Below, in pieces: positions 5,737 through 36,939 of a stretch of DNA of 36,939 nt. Source of the DNA: a virus; the IMG/VR virus record IMGVR_UViG_3300042899_000076, positions 1 through 36,939 of that record. One strand, given 5' to 3'. The notes beneath the pieces were generated by a model that did not search any database, had not been told where the DNA came from, and worked only from the letters and a program-made list of their open reading frames with translations. Within the stretch, counting starts at the first letter, position 1. Every line of letters starts with the position of its first letter. A program made the translations under genes and the position numbers.

Positions 5737-5858
5737 TGGTATCTGTATAATAGATATTATAGTATAAAGGTCTCAATTCTATTATAATAAAAGTTAATTA
5801 TTTTATTATAGTAGTAATTATTTAATATATTAGTATAAAAGTTATAATAACTTCAATT
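5737..5858 (+). promoter_or_regulatory. AT-rich control region upstream of the sigma-like gene
   Basis: About 120 bases with very few G or C. It contains AGTATAAAGGTCTC (5761-5774), nearly repeated at 36708-36720. It also has the palindrome TATTATAATA (5780-5789), found three times in the right-end control region, and a 28-base block (5823-5850) that matches 23 of 28 positions of the minus strand at 36470-36443. No TAnnTTTG element is present. This suggests regulation by something other than the host primary sigma factor. Confidence 0.5.
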
Positions 5859-6464
5859 ATGTTTGAACTTAAGCAAGAGATGATAAGTAGATTTCTTCCA
5901 AAAGATAATAGGTATATCCTGTTCGTCTTAAAAAAGAATCGACGTAACGTCTACAACGAATCCCAGATAGAAGACATCCGCTTCTACACCATAGAGTCCC
6001 TATTCAAAGCCCTCCGCAGGGGGCAGCAGTTTGACTGTGAGGCCCACTTCGTTAACTACCTTAGTGTGGTTATCGACTCAGCCTACAAGCGTATGCTGCA
6101 ACACAATAACGCGAAGAAGAACAACCTTCCGGTAACTAACTTCACTACCATACTTCCTGAGAACCTCTCTGACGGTATCGGTATTGACGACTACCTAGAG
6201 TTTGTTTACGGAGGCACTAGTGCTGACGTAACAGAGTACGATAATACAAACGAACTTATTGTCGAGCTGGCCTACAAGCTGTGCGTAGACAAGAGGTCCG
6301 GTCAACCTAGCGAACTCAAGAGAGCATACTTCGAGGAGATCTACATCAAGGGTAGAGGAGTCAACGAAGTGGCTGAAGAGTATGGCGTAAGCCACCAATC
6401 CGTACAGCAGAAGATGAAAATTCTAATAGAAGATATTAGAAAAGCCCTAAAGGTTGTTGCGTAA
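5859..6464 (+). CDS. Sigma-70-like (ECF-type) transcription factor candidate, 201 aa
   Basis: The C-terminal segment, residues 153-196, with IYIKGRGVNEVAEEYGVSHQ followed by a basic recognition helix, is a typical sigma region 4 helix-turn-helix. The middle part (about 35-85: IEDIRFYTIESLFKALRRGQ, then AHFVNYLSVVIDSAYKRML) fits the helical layout of region 2, though the -10-binding signature is weak. It would direct host RNA polymerase to phage promoters. Upstream lies an AT-rich block sharing motifs with the late control region, suggesting autoregulation and late-gene activation. The alternative is a sigma-like DNA-binding regulator that does not bind polymerase. Confidence 0.6.
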   Translation: MFELKQEMISRFLPKDNRYILFVLKKNRRNVYNESQIEDIRFYTIESLFKALRRGQQFDCEAHFVNYLSVVIDSAYKRMLQHNNAKKNNLPVTNFTTILPENLSDGIGIDDYLEFVYGGTSADVTEYDNTNELIVELAYKLCVDKRSGQPSELKRAYFEEIYIKGRGVNEVAEEYGVSHQSVQQKMKILIEDIRKALKVVA

Positions 6465-7367: not shown

Positions 7368-8133
7368 TAACTACAGAGAGCAAATGCTCTTAAGCGATGA
7401 TAGTTACTATGCAGATAGGTACTATATGTCCAACAGCGCTCTTAAGCTTATGCGGGAATCCCCAACTAAGTTTCACCTATGGCGTAAGGGTTTGTGGTCC
7501 CAACCGGATACATCAGCCTTTAGCCTAGGTAAGGCAGTACACTCTATGTACTTAGAGGGTAAGGACACTGCTATGCTGTGCGACATTAGGAGAGACAAGA
7601 GGACCCAGGCTTATAGAGACTTACTCGATGAGTCCTACGGTATGAACCTTCTGTCCGGATCGGAGTACAAGGACTACGAAGGGATGATGGCAAAGCTCAA
7701 CTCTATTGAGGAGTTAAAGTCTTTGATGTCTTTTGATGAGCCTGAGTTTGGAACCTCTGAACTAGCTGGCTTTAAGGAGGTGCAAGGTGTTAACTTCAAG
7801 GGAAAGGCGGATAGGGTTATTAAGTACAACGAAGACTCTAGGTATATCGTTGACCTTAAGACCACCGCTAAAAGCCTAGAGGATTTTCGATCTTCCGCTA
7901 AGTGGCTTCTGTACAACCAACAGGCTGCACTGTATAGTGAGATCTTTGATGCTGACTTCTTTGTGTTCCTAGTGATTGAAAAGACCTACCCTTATGAGGT
8001 TGGAGTATTCGAGTGCTCACAGGAGTTCTTAGACAGAGGCAAGCAAGAGCTATCTAAATCAATAGAAATGTATAAAGAATTATTTATCAATGAAGAATAC
8101 AACCCATACTCCCCAAGAACATTTGTCCTATAG
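7360..8133 (+). CDS. RecE/exonuclease VIII-like PD-(D/E)XK nuclease, 257 aa
   Basis: The family pattern is clear: MSNSALKLMRESPTKF (23-38), LGKAVHSMYLEG with the first catalytic-site His61, VNFKGKADRV with Asp151, IVDLKTTA with Asp165 and Lys167 (the D-x-K of the fold), and a YNQQAALYSEI motif (185-195). Such enzymes resect one strand of double-stranded DNA 5' to 3', supplying single strands to the annealing protein encoded just upstream. The start is GTG at 7360 (overlap 8 bases) or ATG at 7384. All key residues are present, so the enzyme is predicted to be active. Confidence 0.8.
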   Translation: MNDNYREQMLLSDDSYYADRYYMSNSALKLMRESPTKFHLWRKGLWSQPDTSAFSLGKAVHSMYLEGKDTAMLCDIRRDKRTQAYRDLLDESYGMNLLSGSEYKDYEGMMAKLNSIEELKSLMSFDEPEFGTSELAGFKEVQGVNFKGKADRVIKYNEDSRYIVDLKTTAKSLEDFRSSAKWLLYNQQAALYSEIFDADFFVFLVIEKTYPYEVGVFECSQEFLDRGKQELSKSIEMYKELFINEEYNPYSPRTFVL

Positions 8134-8515
8134 TTCTGTAGTGGATAACATTATAACTAGCGTATCAAACATCACTGGTGTAGAGAAGGCTAAGTTATTT
8201 GAGGATACAAGGACTAGGGATTTTGTTATGGCTCGCCAGATAATTTCCAACGTAATGATTGCCGAAGGCTTCAACGCATCAACTGCTGCAAGGGTATTAA
8301 ACTTAAGCCCTAAGTCGGTTTTTGTTTATGTCTCCAAGCATCAGAACAATATGGAGGGGAGTGCTTATGCACAATCCTTTAACAAATCACTTGAGTTAGT
8401 ACGCTCCAATACATATCTTAGTATTGCTAATGAAGGTGTTATTAATTCTATTAATGCGAGAGTGGCGCGGCTTGAAGGTGTTATCGAACATCTAAAGGCT
8501 TTAATTTTAACGTAA
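8090..8515 (+). CDS. DnaA domain-IV-like helix-turn-helix protein, 141 aa
   Basis: Residues 27-85 (ITGVEKAKLFEDTRTRDFVM, then a helix, then FNASTAARVLNLSPKSVFVY) follow the layout of the DNA-binding C-terminal domain of DnaA: short helix, basic loop, helix rich in small residues, recognition helix. No AAA+ ATPase part is present. The C-terminal 40 residues are helical. It may bind a phage origin or operator and recruit host factors. ATG at 8090 overlaps the nuclease gene by 44 bases; a later start is possible. The alternative is a generic HTH regulator. Confidence 0.55.
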   Translation: MKNTTHTPQEHLSYSSVVDNIITSVSNITGVEKAKLFEDTRTRDFVMARQIISNVMIAEGFNASTAARVLNLSPKSVFVYVSKHQNNMEGSAYAQSFNKSLELVRSNTYLSIANEGVINSINARVARLEGVIEHLKALILT

Positions 8516-9963: not shown

Positions 9964-10185
9964 CAAATCTGCTATGTTTTTTGTCACGAACTAATTCGGA
10001 AATCATCCGAGCTGTTGTCTATAATTCGCCAAATGTACCCTTGATAACCTGATTTGGCACAATATAGATGAACCCTTTATTGTGCATTATAAAGCTCTAT
10101 CGTTGTTAATGATGATTATAGCCGCCCAAACTTATACCCACAGTATAAAAATCATCTAGTTATTAAACTAATAAAACAAACAGAA
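9964..10185 (+). other. Structured non-coding stretch upstream of the GIY-YIG gene
   Basis: No gene was found. Inverted repeats include TCGGA/TCCGA near 10000-10015, GCCAAAT (10028-10034) with ATTTGGC (10052-10058), and GCACAATA (10057-10064) with TATTGTGC (10078-10085). Such nested, mutually exclusive stems could be folded RNA. A group I intron was considered, because homing endonucleases often sit in or near them, but no split gene or conserved intron core was evident. Confidence 0.45.
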
Positions 10186-11317: not shown

Positions 11318-12283
11318 ATGGAACATAAGGAAATAAATCGCGGAGCTATCAGAGACTTTATCTTTGACGTAAGCACACTAAGGGAGTCGCTATTCAATCT
11401 GCGCCACGAAGGGGTAAAGAAAGGAGAGTGGACTGGATTCGAGTCCCTCTTTGATAAGTACTCAATGAAGAGAGGGTCTACCACCTACATCTACGCAGGC
11501 GCACACACAGGCAAGTCTCAGTTCACCTTTGAGTTAATCATAAACCTAGCGCAGTACTCCGGTTGGAAGTGGGCAATATACTCCCCAGAGACAGGATCAC
11601 CAACGGACCTGTATGCGGAGTTGCTTTGGGTGTATCTTAGGAAGCCGTTCCTTGTCAACGATAGGGTAACAGCCTCTGAGGAAGAAGCTGATAAGGCTAT
11701 AGACTTTATATCAAAGCACTTCTTTGTGGTGGACTCTGGACTTAAGGACCTATCGATTGAAGGGTTTTACACAGCAGTAGAGGAGATAGAGTCCCGATAC
11801 GATACCAAGATAGATGGTTGCGTCATTGACCCCTTCACAGAGATAAAGACAGACATATCTTCTGGAGTCCGAGACGACATCGCTATAGGCCAGGTCCTAA
11901 CCAGAATACGCAAACACTCATCCGAGAGGGACTACCACACTATTGTAACGGTGCACACAAAACACCAACAGCCTAAATACAAGAATGGAATCCCTTATGT
12001 CGATGTCCCTACTATGAACGACATTGCAGGTGGAATGCAGTGGTCTCGTAAAGGTATGATGATTATCAATGTATGGAGATGCCCATACGGATTAGAGGAT
12101 GAGAACGGGATCCCATACGAACCTAACCAAGTTAAGATAACTGTAGTTAAAGCAAAGCCTAAGATTGTGGGAAGCCTCGGAAGTATATATCTTTACTACG
12201 ATCGTATGGCAAACAGGTACTATGAGGCAGGAGAAAATGGAAAGAAAATATATGCATACCCACAGCCTTCTTCAGACTTTTAA
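11318..12283 (+). CDS. DnaB/RecA-fold replicative helicase-like ATPase, 321 aa
   Basis: ATG at 11318 overlaps an AAACCAA leader. Walker A AGAHTGKS (60-67); the strand WAIYSPE (85-91) with the glutamate typical of DnaB-like enzymes; Walker B CVIDP (168-172); and a sensor strand IVTVHTKH (209-216) with His213. This matches the RecA-like core of hexameric DnaB-family helicases (AAA_25-like). At 321 aa it lacks the N-terminal DnaB or primase domain. It would unwind DNA at the phage fork, with the host supplying primase and polymerase. The alternative is a RecA/RadA-like recombinase of the Sak4 type. Confidence 0.7.
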   Translation: MEHKEINRGAIRDFIFDVSTLRESLFNLRHEGVKKGEWTGFESLFDKYSMKRGSTTYIYAGAHTGKSQFTFELIINLAQYSGWKWAIYSPETGSPTDLYAELLWVYLRKPFLVNDRVTASEEEADKAIDFISKHFFVVDSGLKDLSIEGFYTAVEEIESRYDTKIDGCVIDPFTEIKTDISSGVRDDIAIGQVLTRIRKHSSERDYHTIVTVHTKHQQPKYKNGIPYVDVPTMNDIAGGMQWSRKGMMIINVWRCPYGLEDENGIPYEPNQVKITVVKAKPKIVGSLGSIYLYYDRMANRYYEAGENGKKIYAYPQPSSDF

Positions 12284-21423: not shown

Positions 21424-21947
21424 TATGCAAAGATTGATTTGTCTACGAATACGCTGTTGTCATTTACGGCGACAGAGCCGATTCCAGATTCCACTGAAAG
21501 GGTAAGATTGATGTAACTCTTTTCTGATAGTCCAGTACCTGAGTCTGCGTCGTAGGACATAACGAGTCCATCCATAACGCCAGATATTGTAACAGTATCG
21601 TTATTGTGCCAAAGGACAACTACTAGATCGTTACGGGTTCCAAGCATATCAACCTTGTTTAGAACAGAGTTGATGTTTGGGATTTGAACTGTGATTGTGG
21701 TTGACACAACAGGTAGTCCATTGGTTATGCTCTTGCTTTCGCTAAAGCCTGTAGTTCCGTCTCTGTTATTGAACTCAATAAAATACGGATTGACAGCATC
21801 TACACTTAATATAATGCTTTCGTCAAAAGGATCGGTTACGATACTTACGTCTTCTTGGGCGTAGAGAACTACTTTCTTAATACCACCTGCTACTTTTTGG
21901 CAGATAATATCTATATCAGTAAGTAAGATTCCGCAACTAAATGCCAT
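21423..21947 (-). CDS. Tail tube protein paralogue 2, 174 aa
   Basis: It shares layout with the 182-aa protein at 22015: an opening MA then GGIKKVVLY against GGITKVLLG, FNNRDG against FNIKDG, and a late SGTGLSEKSYINLTLSVES against TGTGRSEKNRWQMTLTGEE. All-beta, as expected for a tail tube monomer. The pair may build different parts of the tail, or this one may be a minor tube or tail-completion protein. A terminator separates it from the first copy, so its expression is probably lower. Confidence 0.6.
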   Translation of the reverse strand: MAFSCGILLTDIDIICQKVAGGIKKVVLYAQEDVSIVTDPFDESIILSVDAVNPYFIEFNNRDGTTGFSESKSITNGLPVVSTTITVQIPNINSVLNKVDMLGTRNDLVVVLWHNNDTVTISGVMDGLVMSYDADSGTGLSEKSYINLTLSVESGIGSVAVNDNSVFVDKSIFA

Positions 21948-21958
21948 ACTTTTTGTAT

Positions 21959-21987
21959 TAAAAAAGGGCGAGGGATTACCCCGCCCT
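21959..21987 (-). terminator. Terminator after tail tube gene 1
   Basis: On the minus strand GGGCGGGG, a short loop and a CCTCGCCC arm form an eight-pair stem (one G-U) over 21966-21986. Six or more T residues follow (plus-strand A-run 21960-21965). It would end or thin transcription after the abundant tail-tube message. Confidence 0.7.
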
Positions 21988-22014
21988 CTTATTAATATAC
22001 AAGGTTTTCGGTTA

Positions 22015-28709: not shown

Positions 28710-31700
28710 TATAGTCTGTTATTTTTATTTACAATTCTACGATCTATTTCGTTGTTACGCAAATCCGTCTGTGTTACAAAGGCCCTGACGGGTTTACTTG
28801 TATTGCTTGCTACAGCCACATTAGATTCTGCGATAGCGCGAAGATACGACAACTGCTCCTGAGTTGCCCTATCTGCTTGCTGAGGACTTACAGACCCCCC
28901 CGACGCAAACCTAGATGGAATCCTATTAATGCTGTCGTAAGCATAACTTCCGGACATCGCCGTTGGCTTTGCAGAACCGTTTATTTTCTCTAGTAGGCTG
29001 CGGTGAAGATTTGCCGCCCTTTTGTTTACAACAAACTCTCCGCCCTCCATCTCGTATCCACCTCTACCCGCTACGCTAAATGGTACGCCACCCTGTGAGT
29101 GTGAGGGACCCTCTACCATACCACCCTCAGCAAATCGCTTTGGGAAGAATTGACGTTGATTAATTGCGCTAAGCTCTGACGCATAACCAGCAGTGGCAAA
29201 AGCAGCCGCAATACCGCCACTTATCAATGCAGCGGGTAATGGGTTACCTGCCCTTATTTCGTTAATGATTACGGAGCCAAGAGCTTGCAAGAAATCAGAC
29301 CTAGCCTGTTGACGATCTCTCTTTTGTTCGGCATCAAATATCTGTTTGTCAATAGCATTCTGCCTTTCTATCTCTTTCTTTCTGTTGGCTTCCGACCTAT
29401 TGCGAAATTCCTCTTCGGTAATAAGTTGATTGTCCAACTGAGATTTTAAGATGTCGTTCTCTATATCCGCAGAAGCCTGAATAGCAGCCCTTTGCGCCTC
29501 GAGGCGATTCTTTGTGTTCTCAAAGGCAACATCGTTAAACTTATCAATGGCTGTCAATGCTGTATCTACAGCAGACTCTAGTGAGTCAACAAGTATTTCC
29601 TGCCAAAATTCCTCCCAGTCAAACTCATCCTTCCCCTTAGAGGGTCTTTGAGCAGCAGTCTCAATTTGATTTAAAAGCTGTAGGATTATTTTATATGCTG
29701 CTTCACCTTCCGTTGTGGTCCTATCTAAAGAATTTGCAACGGCCAATAATTCTGCACTAAGATCGGTGGTTATTTTATCTAGAGCCTCAAAGTACTCTTC
29801 GGTCTTTCCTGCATTTTCACCAAACTGCTTATTCAACTCTTCGACCTGCTTCTGATAAGTAGAAATAACACCCTTAGAGTCATTTATTGCATCGTTAGCC
29901 CTCTCTAAAAAGGTCTCGTCAATATCATCACCAAGCTCTGCAAAAAGGAAAGAGAGGTCTCCAAGTGATTCTTGAAGGCCATCTACTAGCGATGGAAACT
30001 CACTAGCAAACTTATCTACGGCGATAGTTGCATCCTCGTATAGCGGCCCTAATTTATTGAGCGCATCCTCAATAAGAACTGTAGCCCTTTGATTAGAGGC
30101 GGCAATAGAGTCATTTAGATCCTGCTCGACCTTTGCCCTGTCCACGGATGTCTTAGCAGCCTCTCCAAGTAACTTAGCACGATCTTCGGCAGACTTAACT
30201 TCTTCATTTCTTAGTTCTTTGATTCTTGCCAGCTCATCTTTAAGCTGTGCCTTTCTGCGCTTTATTTCATCAATTTCGGCTCGAGCTGCGTCCTCTCGGA
30301 CCTTCTTTGCGGCTGCTGCCGATTTTTCTTCCGCTCCGGTAAATTCTGAAAGTTGTTCAATCACTTTCTCAAACCCACTCACACGACCAGTAAGAGTGTT
30401 GATGAGTTCTTTGTTTGCTAAAATTCCCCGAGCCTCTTCTTTGTTTAAAGCCTCAGTGGTAAGAACCATCTCTTCCCTGACATCAACTTCAGTCTCTTGA
30501 GCTTTGATTGCAGCAGCATCCGTTGTTGGCCCAAGGGCTTTTATTTCTTTAATGCTTTTAGCGTAGGTCTCCACTACCCTGTTTCTCTCCTTCTCTATGC
30601 TAAGTGCCTTAAGTGTTTCGGTGGCCTGCTCGGTTACAATTTCTTGAAAGCCCCTAAAGGCTACAAAGCTATCACCCAATTTAGCTATACTTAGCCCTGT
30701 ATCATTAAATGCAGTTGTTACTGCTTTAGACTGTTCTGCAGTGGCCTCAAGACCTTTAAGGTATCTGTTTAGAAAAGGCTGACCTTGCTGCGTTCGCTTA
30801 AATATAATTGTCTGAGCCTGCCCTAAACTAAATCCAGCCTTGGTTAGGTCATCAAACAATTTAACCAACTCCTCAGATTGACCAGTACTCTTAAATATAT
30901 TCAAGCTAGACCTTAAAGAACTAAAGGACTCTGCGCCTACTTCCGATAATTTATCTAGTTCTTTTTGGGCGGCGGTTATTCCCGTTGTGCTTGAAAGAGT
31001 TTCATTTAACAACTGATAACCCCTAATCAATCTTTCTGCTTGTGGGAATACAAGTCCGATTGCTGAGGTAAATAGCTCAGTGTTTACTAGCGCCTCACCT
31101 ATAGATATTTTAAGGTCTTCGTATGAGCTTTTTAAGATGTCTGTAATACCCGCAGTGGTAGACATCTGTGCTGCCGAAGCCGCAAGGGAAGATGTTAACC
31201 TTGATGACGCGGAGGCGTTCTCCCTGAGTGCATCGGTATTCCTGAGAATGGTGATTAATTGAGCAGCCGCAGTTTTACCAACTAGGGCGTTTGCCTCAGC
31301 AAGACTAATGTTTTCCTGCGCTAACTTTTCAAGCGTAACGGTAATATCCTCTCCTGGCTTCTTTAGGTCAATAAATATCTTACGAAGTCCTGTTCCAATT
31401 CTACTAGCGGTGAACCCATTGTCGGAAAGCACCTGAAGGAATGATGCTGTCTCGTTAAATGTAAGACCTATTTGATTGGCGATTGGTCCAACATATTGAA
31501 TCGCAGTAGCGAAACTTTCCAATGAAAGTGCAGACTCATTGATTGCCGCAACTAATACCTGTGATGTTGCTGCCGACTCCCTAGAGGAGAGTCCAAACTG
31601 ATTGTTTACTTTAAAGATTACTTCACCAACCGTACCTAAGTCCTCACCTACCGCTTGTGCCGCTAGTGATATTGGTAAAAGAAGGTCCGGTATCTCACTT

Positions 31701-33232: not shown

Positions 33233-33675
33233 TATTGTGCAATCGTTTTAATGTAGGGGCTTCTTGGCAGTACAACAGTAAACTCGCATATCGCTGATGT
33301 TACATTGTAGTCCGAGCCTGTGGCGTTTATAATATCAATGTCGTTAAACTCTACGTCTGCCTCGTCTATCAGTTGAAGTAGATGGTCTTGAAGTTGCCCA
33401 ATAACAAATATGTTTTCCTCTGATGACAGGATAGCACCTAAATCGTTTGTGGGGTCAACCCTGTCAAACAAGATAAGCATAAAGGTCAACTCGTATGTTG
33501 GGCGGTTTAACTCCCTAGAGATGTTGCTGCGTGAGGGCATAAGAGCCAACGAGCGAAACTCAAACTCCCTGCCCTCTAGTTCTGATTCGTCTCCAACAAG
33601 AACAAACTCGTTTATTAGCGGATGATTGTCGGCAAAAGCCTTAACCTCCTGGTATAGGTCACTAAGGGTCTTCAT
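33232..33675 (-). CDS. Tail completion/terminator-like protein, 147 aa
   Basis: ATG at 33675. Alternating beta strands and helices: LSDLYQEVKAFADNHPLINE, RPTYELTFMLILFDRVDP, GQLQDHLLQLIDEADVEFND and a last strand AICEFTVVLPR. This is the typical fold order of tail-terminator (gpU-like or gp17-like) proteins that cap the tube and join it to the head. Position between terminase-side genes and the tape measure agrees. Weak motifs, so the assignment is moderate. Confidence 0.5.
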   Translation of the reverse strand: MKTLSDLYQEVKAFADNHPLINEFVLVGDESELEGREFEFRSLALMPSRSNISRELNRPTYELTFMLILFDRVDPTNDLGAILSSEENIFVIGQLQDHLLQLIDEADVEFNDIDIINATGSDYNVTSAICEFTVVLPRSPYIKTIAQ

Positions 33676-33690
33676 CTCACTTTAGATAAT

Positions 33691-34398
33691 TTACAAGCCT
33701 CGGGTTACGCGGTTCCTAAACTCCTGAGCCTTATCTAGTTTCGCTTTCTGAATTAAGAAGCTAAGTTCGGGAAGAACAGACTCCATCTTAAGCATATACA
33801 CTTTGTCGTAGTTCAGTATGTTTTCACCACCTAGCCTTCTAACTATGTTATACCAGTACCACTGCTCCCTAAACTTATACTCAAAGGTTTCTTCTCCTGC
33901 GGGTTCCTCCTCGCCCTCTTCTTTCTCTTGCTCTGGGTCATAAAACACACCAGCGAAATCACTGAACAACACTTTATTTCGATCTTCGATAAAGTCAGAC
34001 AGTATGGAGGTAGCTATTACCACATCCAAATCCAATATCTTATTGTCGTTCTCGCGCTCCTTTATGATATTGGTATTATCGAACTCTTTGTCTTCGGTTG
34101 GCCTAAGTATGATTCTAAGAACACTAAAGTCAAATAGGTGTTTGGGGACTTCGTCCTTTCCGGTAAAGATCTGCTCAACCATAATAAACTGACCCAACAC
34201 TAAGTCAAATACCCTTCGGTGGGCGTTGAAGTCTACTTGCTGGTAGTCCACCTCTATTTTTTTAATTGGGTAGACCTCTTGCATTTTTCGCTTTAGGGTG
34301 ATTGCCTCGACAGCCCCGAGAGTGTTAAGATAAGTGTCGAGTGAGTGCCCACCCTTAATAAACTTAGTAAGCTCTATATGTTCCCGTAGGGTTATCAT
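33691..34398 (-). CDS. Hypothetical protein after the terminase, 235 aa
   Basis: ATG at 34398 overlaps the terminase stop (ATGA). A charged helical N-terminus (IELTKFIKGGHSLDTYLNTL) is followed by a beta-containing part. A very acidic loop (DPEQEKEEGEEEPAGEETFE) precedes the C-terminal helical part with WYWYNIVRRLGGENIL and LKMESVLPELSFLIQKAKLD. Similar length and acidic-insert layout is familiar from tail or head-tail proteins of Bacteroidetes phages, where function is unknown. In other phages the portal would be encoded here; this protein lacks portal features. Confidence 0.6.
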   Translation of the reverse strand: MITLREHIELTKFIKGGHSLDTYLNTLGAVEAITLKRKMQEVYPIKKIEVDYQQVDFNAHRRVFDLVLGQFIMVEQIFTGKDEVPKHLFDFSVLRIILRPTEDKEFDNTNIIKERENDNKILDLDVVIATSILSDFIEDRNKVLFSDFAGVFYDPEQEKEEGEEEPAGEETFEYKFREQWYWYNIVRRLGGENILNYDKVYMLKMESVLPELSFLIQKAKLDKAQEFRNRVTRGL

Positions 34399-35648
34399 TT
34401 GATAAAGGTAGTGATTCCGCCCTCTTGTTCCTCCTTAGCGCACCAACACGCTATCGCCAAAGACATCACCATATCGTCGTGCTTGCCGTCGGTATTAGAA
34501 AACTGAAGGTTTCCTGTAATTGGATTCCTCTTACTCTTGAAATCATACAACTCCCTAATCAGATTATTGTCTGGTGGTATTGTAATAATGTTTTCCTCAA
34601 ATAACTTTATAAGGTTTCTCACTATCTCTGGCTTACTTTGCCCCGAGGTGGTAAATGGTATTAGCTTATACATCCTCTCGTCATCCGATATGTCGTCAAA
34701 CAAAAGATTGTTGTTGTTGACCTCAAAGTATGCTGCCGACAGGTGGCTATCGAAGTGTAGGTAAAAGTCCTTTATTCGCTGCTTAAACTGCGTTGAGTCA
34801 AGCGTAGCCTCCTTCATATTAAATCTATCGATACCAATAACCTCGTAGTCTTGGGTAACGGCAGTCAAGACAGTATAGTCCTGCGCTATACCAATGTCCA
34901 TACCGATGTATACCCTTTCGTATTTGGTTGGTGTGTTCGGCCTTACGGCCTCCTCAATGTTCGAGAACAAAGCGTCGGAACTCACAGGCTTACATAGATA
35001 CTCCTGATCAAACTGGGCCTTTGTCAGACTCTTCTTAATACTAAGGACCGTCTTCTCCACTAGCGGGTCTTCCAAATCTAGGTATGTCTTTTTGACAGCA
35101 ACTATATCCTCTTGATTATCAGTGTCTAAGCCCCTTTGATACCAATCCCAAAACCAGTTCTTACCATTAAAGGTACTAGCCATACACACCCTACCACCTG
35201 TTCTAGTCACCATCGGCAGCAGGACCTCGTTGATAAAAGCCTCTGCCATAAAGGCTGCTTCGTCAATATAGATAAAGTCTAGGGTAGCGCCTCGAAGGTT
35301 ATCACCAGAGTCGGCAGAACGGAACTTAATAAAGCTGCCGTTGTAGAAGTACATCTCGTTGTTCTTCCTGTCAAACCTCTTTACTATTTCAGCAAACAAC
35401 TCTTGGTGGTTTATAAACGCAGCCTCTACGTCCTTCATAACCTTGTTGGCTTGGTCCTGAATAGGGCTAACCCAGAAGATCCTTTGCCTCCCCTTGTTTA
35501 GACAACGCATAATAGCGTCGTTCATCATAAAGAAACTCTTTCCTGTCTGCCTCCCAGCAACCAACAAACTAATAAATGGCTTATGCTCGTTTACTAAGTT
35601 GTGAAAATCTACCTGTGGCTTACTTGGCTTATAGAGTTTAATCTCCAT
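34395..35648 (-). CDS. terL: Terminase large subunit, 417 aa
   Basis: ATPase domain: Walker A AGRQTGKS (31-38), an RIFWVSPIQDQANKV block, Walker B IYIDEA (126-131), and a coupling ASTFNGK motif (157-163). Nuclease domain (RNase H fold): YIGMDIGIAQDYTVL with Asp251, AYFEVNNN with Glu309, and DGKHDDMVMSLAIA with Asp391, the three acidic metal ligands. It powers packaging of DNA into the prohead and cuts the concatemer. ATG at 35648 overlaps the small subunit gene by 11 bases. All catalytic residues are present. Confidence 0.92.
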   Translation of the reverse strand: MEIKLYKPSKPQVDFHNLVNEHKPFISLLVAGRQTGKSFFMMNDAIMRCLNKGRQRIFWVSPIQDQANKVMKDVEAAFINHQELFAEIVKRFDRKNNEMYFYNGSFIKFRSADSGDNLRGATLDFIYIDEAAFMAEAFINEVLLPMVTRTGGRVCMASTFNGKNWFWDWYQRGLDTDNQEDIVAVKKTYLDLEDPLVEKTVLSIKKSLTKAQFDQEYLCKPVSSDALFSNIEEAVRPNTPTKYERVYIGMDIGIAQDYTVLTAVTQDYEVIGIDRFNMKEATLDSTQFKQRIKDFYLHFDSHLSAAYFEVNNNNLLFDDISDDERMYKLIPFTTSGQSKPEIVRNLIKLFEENIITIPPDNNLIRELYDFKSKRNPITGNLQFSNTDGKHDDMVMSLAIACWCAKEEQEGGITTFIK

Positions 35649-36120
35649 CTACTTCATCTTCGGTGTAACCAATATCAATATATCTAGGCGACTCCTCTTC
35701 CTCAACAGGTCTTGTCAAGTCTATAGATGCCTTAATATCAATCTTCGTCTTCTGGACCTTTATAGGGGCCTTATGCCCTGCCATATCGTTTATAATCTTT
35801 ATGGCCTCCATAGCGGTCTTAAAGTCATCACTCTCCAAAGACCTATCCCTAATCTCCACCAACCTCTCTAGGTTCATCCCCTTCGATATTGCAATATCAG
35901 CCTCTACCTCGCTCGCTAGGTTATGGAGCTTGTGGTAGAACGCAGTTCCGATAGTATTCTTATCCCTGTAGTAGTTTGAGTAACCAATCTCCTTGGCAAC
36001 CCTACTGGCCCTTGACAGCCCCTGCTTTCGGACCTCCTGAATAAACTTCTCCTGAAGTGGGGTCAACTGAGCACCAGTACCCCTTATCACATCTCCGTAC
36101 TGATTCCTGACAATCGCCAT
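35638..36120 (-). CDS. terS: Terminase small subunit, 160 aa
   Basis: ATG at 36120 shares one base with the preceding stop. N-terminal LTPLQEKFIQEVRKQGLSRA followed by SRVAKEIGYSNYYRD is a helix-turn-helix typical of terminase small subunits (Terminase_2-like). The central region is an oligomerisation helix (LERLVEIRDRSLESDDFKTA), and the C-terminal tail is acidic and contacts the large subunit in homologues. It recognises the packaging site. Gene order small-large is standard. Confidence 0.8.
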   Translation of the reverse strand: MAIVRNQYGDVIRGTGAQLTPLQEKFIQEVRKQGLSRASRVAKEIGYSNYYRDKNTIGTAFYHKLHNLASEVEADIAISKGMNLERLVEIRDRSLESDDFKTAMEAIKIINDMAGHKAPIKVQKTKIDIKASIDLTRPVEEEESPRYIDIGYTEDEVDGD

Positions 36121-36392
36121 TACTTCTTAAGATAGATTGGTTGTTTGGACACGCCAAGCCGCCCAGTGAACTCTAGGTCATCCAACTTCTTGGTGGACTC
36201 AAAGTGATACCACTTCCAAAGATTAACCTTTACCTTCTGCACACAAGCACCACATACCGTCTTAGGGTTTTCAGCCTGTCGTATCCAAGCAGAGCGCCCA
36301 ACCAAACTGTTATGCATTGCAAACATACTATCCTTAACATCACCCCTTGGAAGCTCCGGAGTAATCAGATCATAAAATATATCGAGATTCAT
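36120..36392 (-). CDS. First late gene, hypothetical protein, 90 aa
   Basis: ATG at 36392, about 50 bases after a degenerate AT-rich motif shared with the sigma-like gene. Contains a CGAC motif (Cys-x2-Cys, about 48-51) followed by KVKVNLWKWYHFES and a basic end. I recall small CxxC proteins next to terminase genes in Bacteroidetes phages, but no function. The second cysteine pair of a ribbon is missing. Co-transcribed with terS and terL. Confidence 0.65.
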   Translation of the reverse strand: MNLDIFYDLITPELPRGDVKDSMFAMHNSLVGRSAWIRQAENPKTVCGACVQKVKVNLWKWYHFESTKKLDDLEFTGRLGVSKQPIYLKK

Positions 36393-36442
36393 AAACTAAT
36401 CTACAAGATGAATGTCGCCTGATAATCAACGACTTACAATAA

Positions 36443-36470
36443 TAATAATAACTTGTATTATAATATATTA
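36443..36470 (-). promoter_or_regulatory. Candidate phage-specific late promoter motif
   Basis: Read on the minus strand, this 28-base block agrees at 23 of 28 positions with 5823-5850 on the plus strand, which lies just upstream of the sigma-like gene. Shared parts are TAATATATTA, then ATA, then AAGTTAT. In both places the motif points toward the downstream gene. It lacks the host -7 consensus. Chance agreement is raised by the low sequence complexity. Confidence 0.4.
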
Positions 36471-36596
36471 TAATATACTATAAAGTAACTATTAGAATAA
36501 AGGTAATAGAAGTTATAGTAAATGTAATAACCACTATAATAAATTAATAACCTATGTAATAATAACTTTACAGGTTTAGTTGTAGTATAATAGTAA

Positions 36597-36621
36597 AAAG
36601 AAACTCATAAAGAGTTTCTTT
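36597..36621 (-). terminator. Terminator hairpin in the control region
   Basis: Perfect ten-pair stem AAAGAAACTC (36597-36606) / GAGTTTCTTT (36612-36621) with a five-base loop. On the minus strand the stem runs directly into TTTTTAC, giving a T-tract; on the plus strand the tail is weaker (ATAATAAAG). It would insulate the late promoter from leftward transcription entering from the joined left end. Confidence 0.6.
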
Positions 36622-36723
36622 ATAATAAAGTATTATAATAACTATTATACACAAAGATTGGATTTAAGACACTTTCTTTCATCAAGGTAGGTAAGTACAC
36701 ACAAAAGAGTATAAAGTCTCTTA

Positions 36724-36939
36724 GAATCAAAATAAGAGGGGTCCTGATTAATGTCAACGACCTTCCCCCCTGAAGTAATTCCCCGCGCTCAGAGAGGGTA
36801 ACTAAAACCCCTTGTCCATTCTTTCCGTTCACGCAACAAAAATCTTTTGCAAATAATGCAAAAAATAAATTGCCCTTTCTATTGCTTTTTTTTCGTTTGT
36901 TGTTTGGTGGAACCGAATAGTTAACGTATCTTTATAGTG
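36724..36939. repeat. Direct terminal repeat, right copy
   Basis: Copy of 1-216 with one change (T at 36812 for C at 89). It carries the second copy of the candidate early promoter (36903-36934). With the left copy it defines either packaged terminal repeats or the overlap of a circular map. Confidence 0.9.

Follow-up and report, generated by a model that had tools for sequence, protein, structure and literature searches.

The window, the whole stretch of DNA that was analysed, comprises the 36,939 bases of a phage record and has a genome GC content of 42%. The early arm is located on the plus strand and the late arm on the minus strand, the latter opening with a 90-aa gene and a 160-aa gene followed by the terminase large subunit. 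The genes and features under consideration are as follows.

5737-5858, plus strand: block A, an AT-rich word array (12% GC) directly before the sigma-like gene
5859-6464, plus strand: predicted 201-aa ECF-type sigma-like protein (AlphaFold model, with only sigma factors among its top PDB matches)
8090-8515, plus strand: family-conserved HTH protein resembling DnaA domain IV (family HMM 8e-15; Pfam Bac_DnaA_C 2e-5, below the curated cut-off)
11318-12283: DnaB-like helicase gene
21993-22002, minus strand: late promoter candidate TTGTATATTA, lying 46 bp upstream of a gene start at 21947
33687-33696, minus strand: late promoter candidate TTGTAAATTA, lying 12 bp upstream of a gene start at 33675
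34395-35648, minus strand: terminase large subunit of the late operon
36120-36392, minus strand: first late gene, 90 aa, function unassigned, with homologs in 58 loci
36397-36414, minus strand: candidate late promoter, CATTCA-tc-TTGTAGATTA, whose end is separated by 4 bp from the ATG that starts the first late gene
36431-36650, minus strand: block B, which precedes the late operon as an array of AT-rich words (15-21% GC), with three of the four TATTATAATA sites and found at the same place in relatives
36443-36470, minus strand: 28-base stretch, identical at 23 of 28 positions to its partner at 5823-5850 (plus strand)
36597-36621, minus strand: hairpin in block B, AAAGAAACTC-TTTAT-GAGTTTCTTT, followed by a short T run

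The record seems to be cut within the divergent early/late region (ends at 1 and 36939). In two relatives, L020 and L029, the late operon adjoins homologs of the first early genes of the window. If the record ends join, as is implied by the gene order in L020 and other relatives, the two AT-rich regions, described in the first-pass annotation as 30 kb apart, would instead be separated by about 6.3 kb. Upstream of block B and near the terminase genes (about 36760-36805, minus strand) lies a GC-rich element with CTCTGAGCGCGGGGAA and GGGGGGAAGG, and at the same place relatives carry a GC-rich element of the form GACCG ... CTCGGAGCGGGGGGA; this element may be a packaging site. Rfam and tRNA searches gave no match.

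The 28-base match reported in the first-pass annotation was found at the positions and on the strands given there. At least 23 of 28 identities were, however, reached in 2.0% of dinucleotide shuffles of the two regions in the same orientation and in 3.6% in either orientation, so that the match on its own is marginal and makes weak evidence. The better signal is TATTATAATA, of which four sites were found in 36.9 kb, only in these two regions, against 0.11 expected, and none of 100 shuffles reached four. The second AT motif said to be common to both regions, TAATAACT, was not enriched genome-wide (five found vs 2.66 expected), though four of the five sites are within the two regions. Among the 9-mers common to blocks A and B of the window, 39 of 42 sites are inside the two blocks. 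The absence of a full TAnnTTTG host box from both regions was also borne out.

Relatives (loci L002-L126) were collected by TerL and sigma-family scans, additional TerL scans returning mostly identical contigs, and block pairs were compared among the 21 genomes with both regions in hand. In most relatives with the region present, two AT blocks were found, one ahead of the late operon and the other immediately preceding the gene that opens a regulator slot. The blocks of the 21 genomes consist of repeated AT-rich words and usually include one GC-stemmed hairpin. The words vary among lineages yet agree within one genome, as represented by ACTATAATAGTAACTAT in L008 and L015 (both with near-tandem 17-bp units), CCCTATATAGTAT in L017 and TAATGTAATTACATTA in L024. 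With respect to conservation of the motif in relatives, which the first-pass annotation had made one of its tests, the paired architecture is kept but the words themselves change between lineages. When close relatives of the window that include the region upstream of the late arm were sought, only one contig was obtained, and it starts downstream of that region.

Blocks from the same genome had a mean of 19.0 common 8-mers vs 12.0 for permuted pairs (P<5e-5; 21 genomes). With six lineage representatives, one per word class, and composition-corrected z-scores, the true pairing ranked first of 720, this rank being the fairer figure because the word classes were named after the words had been viewed, and relatedness was controlled in part; the true pairing was first or second whatever representatives were chosen for the word classes. 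In 18 genomes the common words were hardly found outside the two blocks (for example, 39/42, 102/106 and 92/96 sites). Exact-pattern scans over whole contigs agreed with this confinement, the 8-base word of L024 being less specific, and ACTATTATAGT was found in three phages solely in the two clusters. Words that are common to both targets, rare elsewhere and co-varying, as in an operator array, were therefore observed across genomes, with the window alone being weak in that no pair scored lower than its own (z 1.5). A fortuitous resemblance between two AT-rich spacers might account for the 28-base match alone, which 2-4% of shuffles reach, but it is contradicted by the recurrence, pairing and confinement of the words across relatives; this explanation, hardly credible, was rejected.

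A third AT block was detected before another late gene in L033 (contig 9989-10039) and in L038 (contig 29834-29880). These third blocks precede seemingly homologous small late genes, and the L038 copy has a hairpin. The words followed the TerL phylogeny, and partial Mantel tests singled out no reader protein.

In 38 of 42 blocks a perfect, GC-containing stem capped by a short loop was identified, such as shuffles rarely give; its sequence is not constant among genomes or even within one genome, where the two blocks differ. In block A of L006 and L008 the best-scoring hairpin is made by the words themselves, and a separate short hairpin is visible by eye. Folding of the window block as RNA gave z -2.5. 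The T run that follows the GC stem in the window is absent from most hairpins of the relatives, and the hairpin is therefore probably not a standard terminator. The frequent GC-stemmed hairpins, together with the T's after the hairpin of the window, could be taken to mean that the blocks are transcription terminators or insulators. This role is very unlikely, since in the relatives most hairpins miss the T run and no upstream gene of the same direction reads into block B, and since the genome-specific matching of words would be left unexplained.

The slot gene behind block A was always of DNA-binding type, either sigma-like or DnaA-IV-like. It is sigma-like in the window, L003, L028, L032, L033, L037, L038, L048, L053, L058, L061 and L064, and in all of these except the window and L003 it is immediately followed by a DnaA-domain-IV-like gene. 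In L006, L008, L010, L015, L017, L020, L024 and L054 the slot is taken by the DnaA-like gene itself, and no sigma gene was seen there. For the 201-aa protein of the window, the PDB matches topping the E-value order were all sigma factors, mostly of ECF type (best E 4.6e-3); region 4 of the model matched 3hug with a TM of 0.71 of the target, at moderate model confidence (pLDDT 70.7). The model contains the region 2 and region 4 folds of sigma-70 ECF factors, and the Pfam Sigma70_r4 profile scored above the cut-off for the relatives L064 and L038 and below it for the window protein. As modelled, the 201-aa protein is ECF-type sigma-like, in agreement with its first description as sigma-like. Comparison of the sigma-like protein with a named-phage collection gave no match.

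Among the DnaA-like slot proteins, Bac_DnaA_C was detected in L024 and L054 (39.8 and 51.1 bits vs the cut-off of 31.5), scored just below the cut-off in L008, L006 and L015, and was not found in L010 and L020. The contigs of L020 and L022 (38 and 43 kb) gave no sigma region-4 signal, and the sole such signal in L017 (53 kb) was weak and located within its second DnaA-like protein. Profile comparison between the sigma-like and DnaA-like families indicated no homology. For phage proteins consisting of DnaA domain IV only, no assigned role was found in the literature searched.

The reading of block B as promoter overlooked a separate conserved promoter-like element just outside the reported region, CATTCA-tc-TTGTAGATTA at 36397-36414, which is present at the matching place in nearly 50 related loci, in some of them near-identical. 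In seven genomes the motif TTGTAnATTA was found at 38 late-strand vs two early-strand sites, a few sites being counted twice where neighbouring loci overlap slightly, and 32 of the 38 precede a gene start by no more than 70 bases. Seven scrambled patterns gave at most three late-strand sites, none of them upstream of a late gene. The window by itself has three sites, a number without significance since it was reached in 7 of 100 shuffles, and no conserved -35 was observed among 35 non-redundant sites. The motif precedes late genes in phages with and without the sigma gene. Neither TTGTAnATTA nor the blocks were found described in the literature searched.

Three further arrangements were observed around the late promoters. 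In the window (21947-22002, minus strand), and likewise in L028 (contig 12292) and similar cases, a terminator-like GC hairpin follows TTGTAnATTA before the next late gene, and a transcript starting there would therefore meet the hairpin at once. In many relatives the late core promoter is closely preceded by an inverted repeat, TGAATG/CATTCA (TGAATGnnCATTCA), in place of which the window has GTCGTTGATTATCAGGCGAC (36415-36434, minus strand); this repeat is possibly a second operator. In several sigma-less phages (L006:9270-9300 and similar), the first late ATG follows the promoter-box TTTG by three bases, and the late mRNA would therefore be nearly leaderless.

The sigma-A promoter box of Bacteroidota is TAnnTTTG (PMC9723704). 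The first late promoter of sigma-less phages resembles it in ending TATATTTG, whereas in the window and in most sigma phages the base after TTGTAnATT is a different one. The TTTG ending was found in 6/6 lineages without sigma vs 1/10 with sigma (Fisher 0.0009), an association for which the tree holds a few separate contrasts (window vs L024; L054 within the sigma clade) and one exception, L061. Upon extension to 28 more contigs, most of them fragmentary, one weak match was obtained. The internal late promoters end TTA in both groups. Judging only from the promoter resemblance, the host would belong to Bacteroidota; a TerL search of genome contigs for the host gave no match.

The simplest model of the first-pass annotation made the AT motifs a phage-specific promoter or operator class that the sigma-like factor of the phage would read; as a promoter class, they would drive the gene of that factor and the late operon. 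The sigma fold of the 201-aa protein, the abutment of the blocks on the slot start codon and the first late promoter without the host TTTG ending in nine of ten sigma lineages all point in this direction. Phage sigma factors for late genes include T4 gp55, with its -10-only late promoters, and SPO1 gp28, and the likeness lies in the early-arm location of a sigma-like gene encoded by the phage and in a short late motif without a visible -35. The motif here is, however, TTGTAnATTA and not TATAAATA, it is also present in sigma-less relatives, and it is accompanied by a paired AT array. Both the paired AT blocks and TTGTAnATTA were found without a sigma gene; relatives without a detectable sigma gene keep the paired blocks, some of them on contigs of 38-53 kb, including the 38 and 43 kb contigs above, and the late operon has its own core promoter apart from the block. 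A promoter class read by sigma only is thus unlikely. Because the motif precedes later late genes in phages without sigma, the sigma-like protein cannot be the sole reader of TTGTAnATTA. Of the earlier proposal, phage-specific control is supported, in that a conserved pair of blocks stands at the regulator gene and the late operon, an arrangement that autoregulation together with late control would predict, but the AT motif as sigma-read promoter is not.

The blocks might also be replication origins, in view of their iterated AT words and AT richness, the near-tandem units of L015 and L008, the hairpin, the neighbouring DnaA-domain-IV gene, the Bac_DnaA_C proteins and the DnaB-like helicase gene. 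Iteron origins lie beside their initiator gene and are similar in the iterated words, the AT richness and an adjacent DnaA-type HTH gene, but are different with respect to number and position, two or three sites per genome being found here, each at a gene start. The occupation of the same slot by a sigma-like protein and the conserved position at the late operon also speak against origins, and this assignment is quite unlikely.

The two AT blocks are best interpreted as operator arrays of one phage-encoded regulatory circuit, to which a probability of about 0.6 is given. Because the same architecture accompanies a sigma-like or a DnaA-IV slot gene, each block is probably an operator array rather than the promoter of sigma. 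That the words match within a phage and differ between phage groups suggests one phage-made switch protein as the reader of both blocks. In this circuit, a phage DNA-binding protein would bind the repeated genome-specific AT words before the regulator slot, leading to autoregulation, and the same protein would bind the block upstream of the late operon, so as to switch on, or hold back, late transcription. Late transcription itself would start from the separate core promoter, CATTCA-tc-TTGTAGATTA in this record, beside the first late gene. Most likely, the reader is encoded in the regulator slot or is the conserved DnaA-domain-IV-like protein next to it; in the window it would be the sigma-like protein or the DnaA-like protein of 8090-8515.

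Autoregulated phage regulators with operators at their own gene and at a late promoter include the P2 Ogr-type activators. The related upstream sites at the regulator gene and the late operon are similar, but the sites here are AT-only word arrays that change between lineages and carry a hairpin, and the slot gene is sigma-like or DnaA-IV-like. A late switch composed altogether of co-evolving genome-specific AT arrays, an exchangeable ECF-sigma/DnaA-IV regulator and a new -35-less promoter class, TTGTAnATTA, is put forward as a tentative and rather doubtful extension of the operator reading.

The control of late genes is unknown in most uncultured phages, and candidate regulators, their likely operators at two sites and a late promoter motif common to the family are provided here from sequence alone. 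The paired blocks point to a transcriptional role for the phage proteins that consist of DnaA domain IV only.
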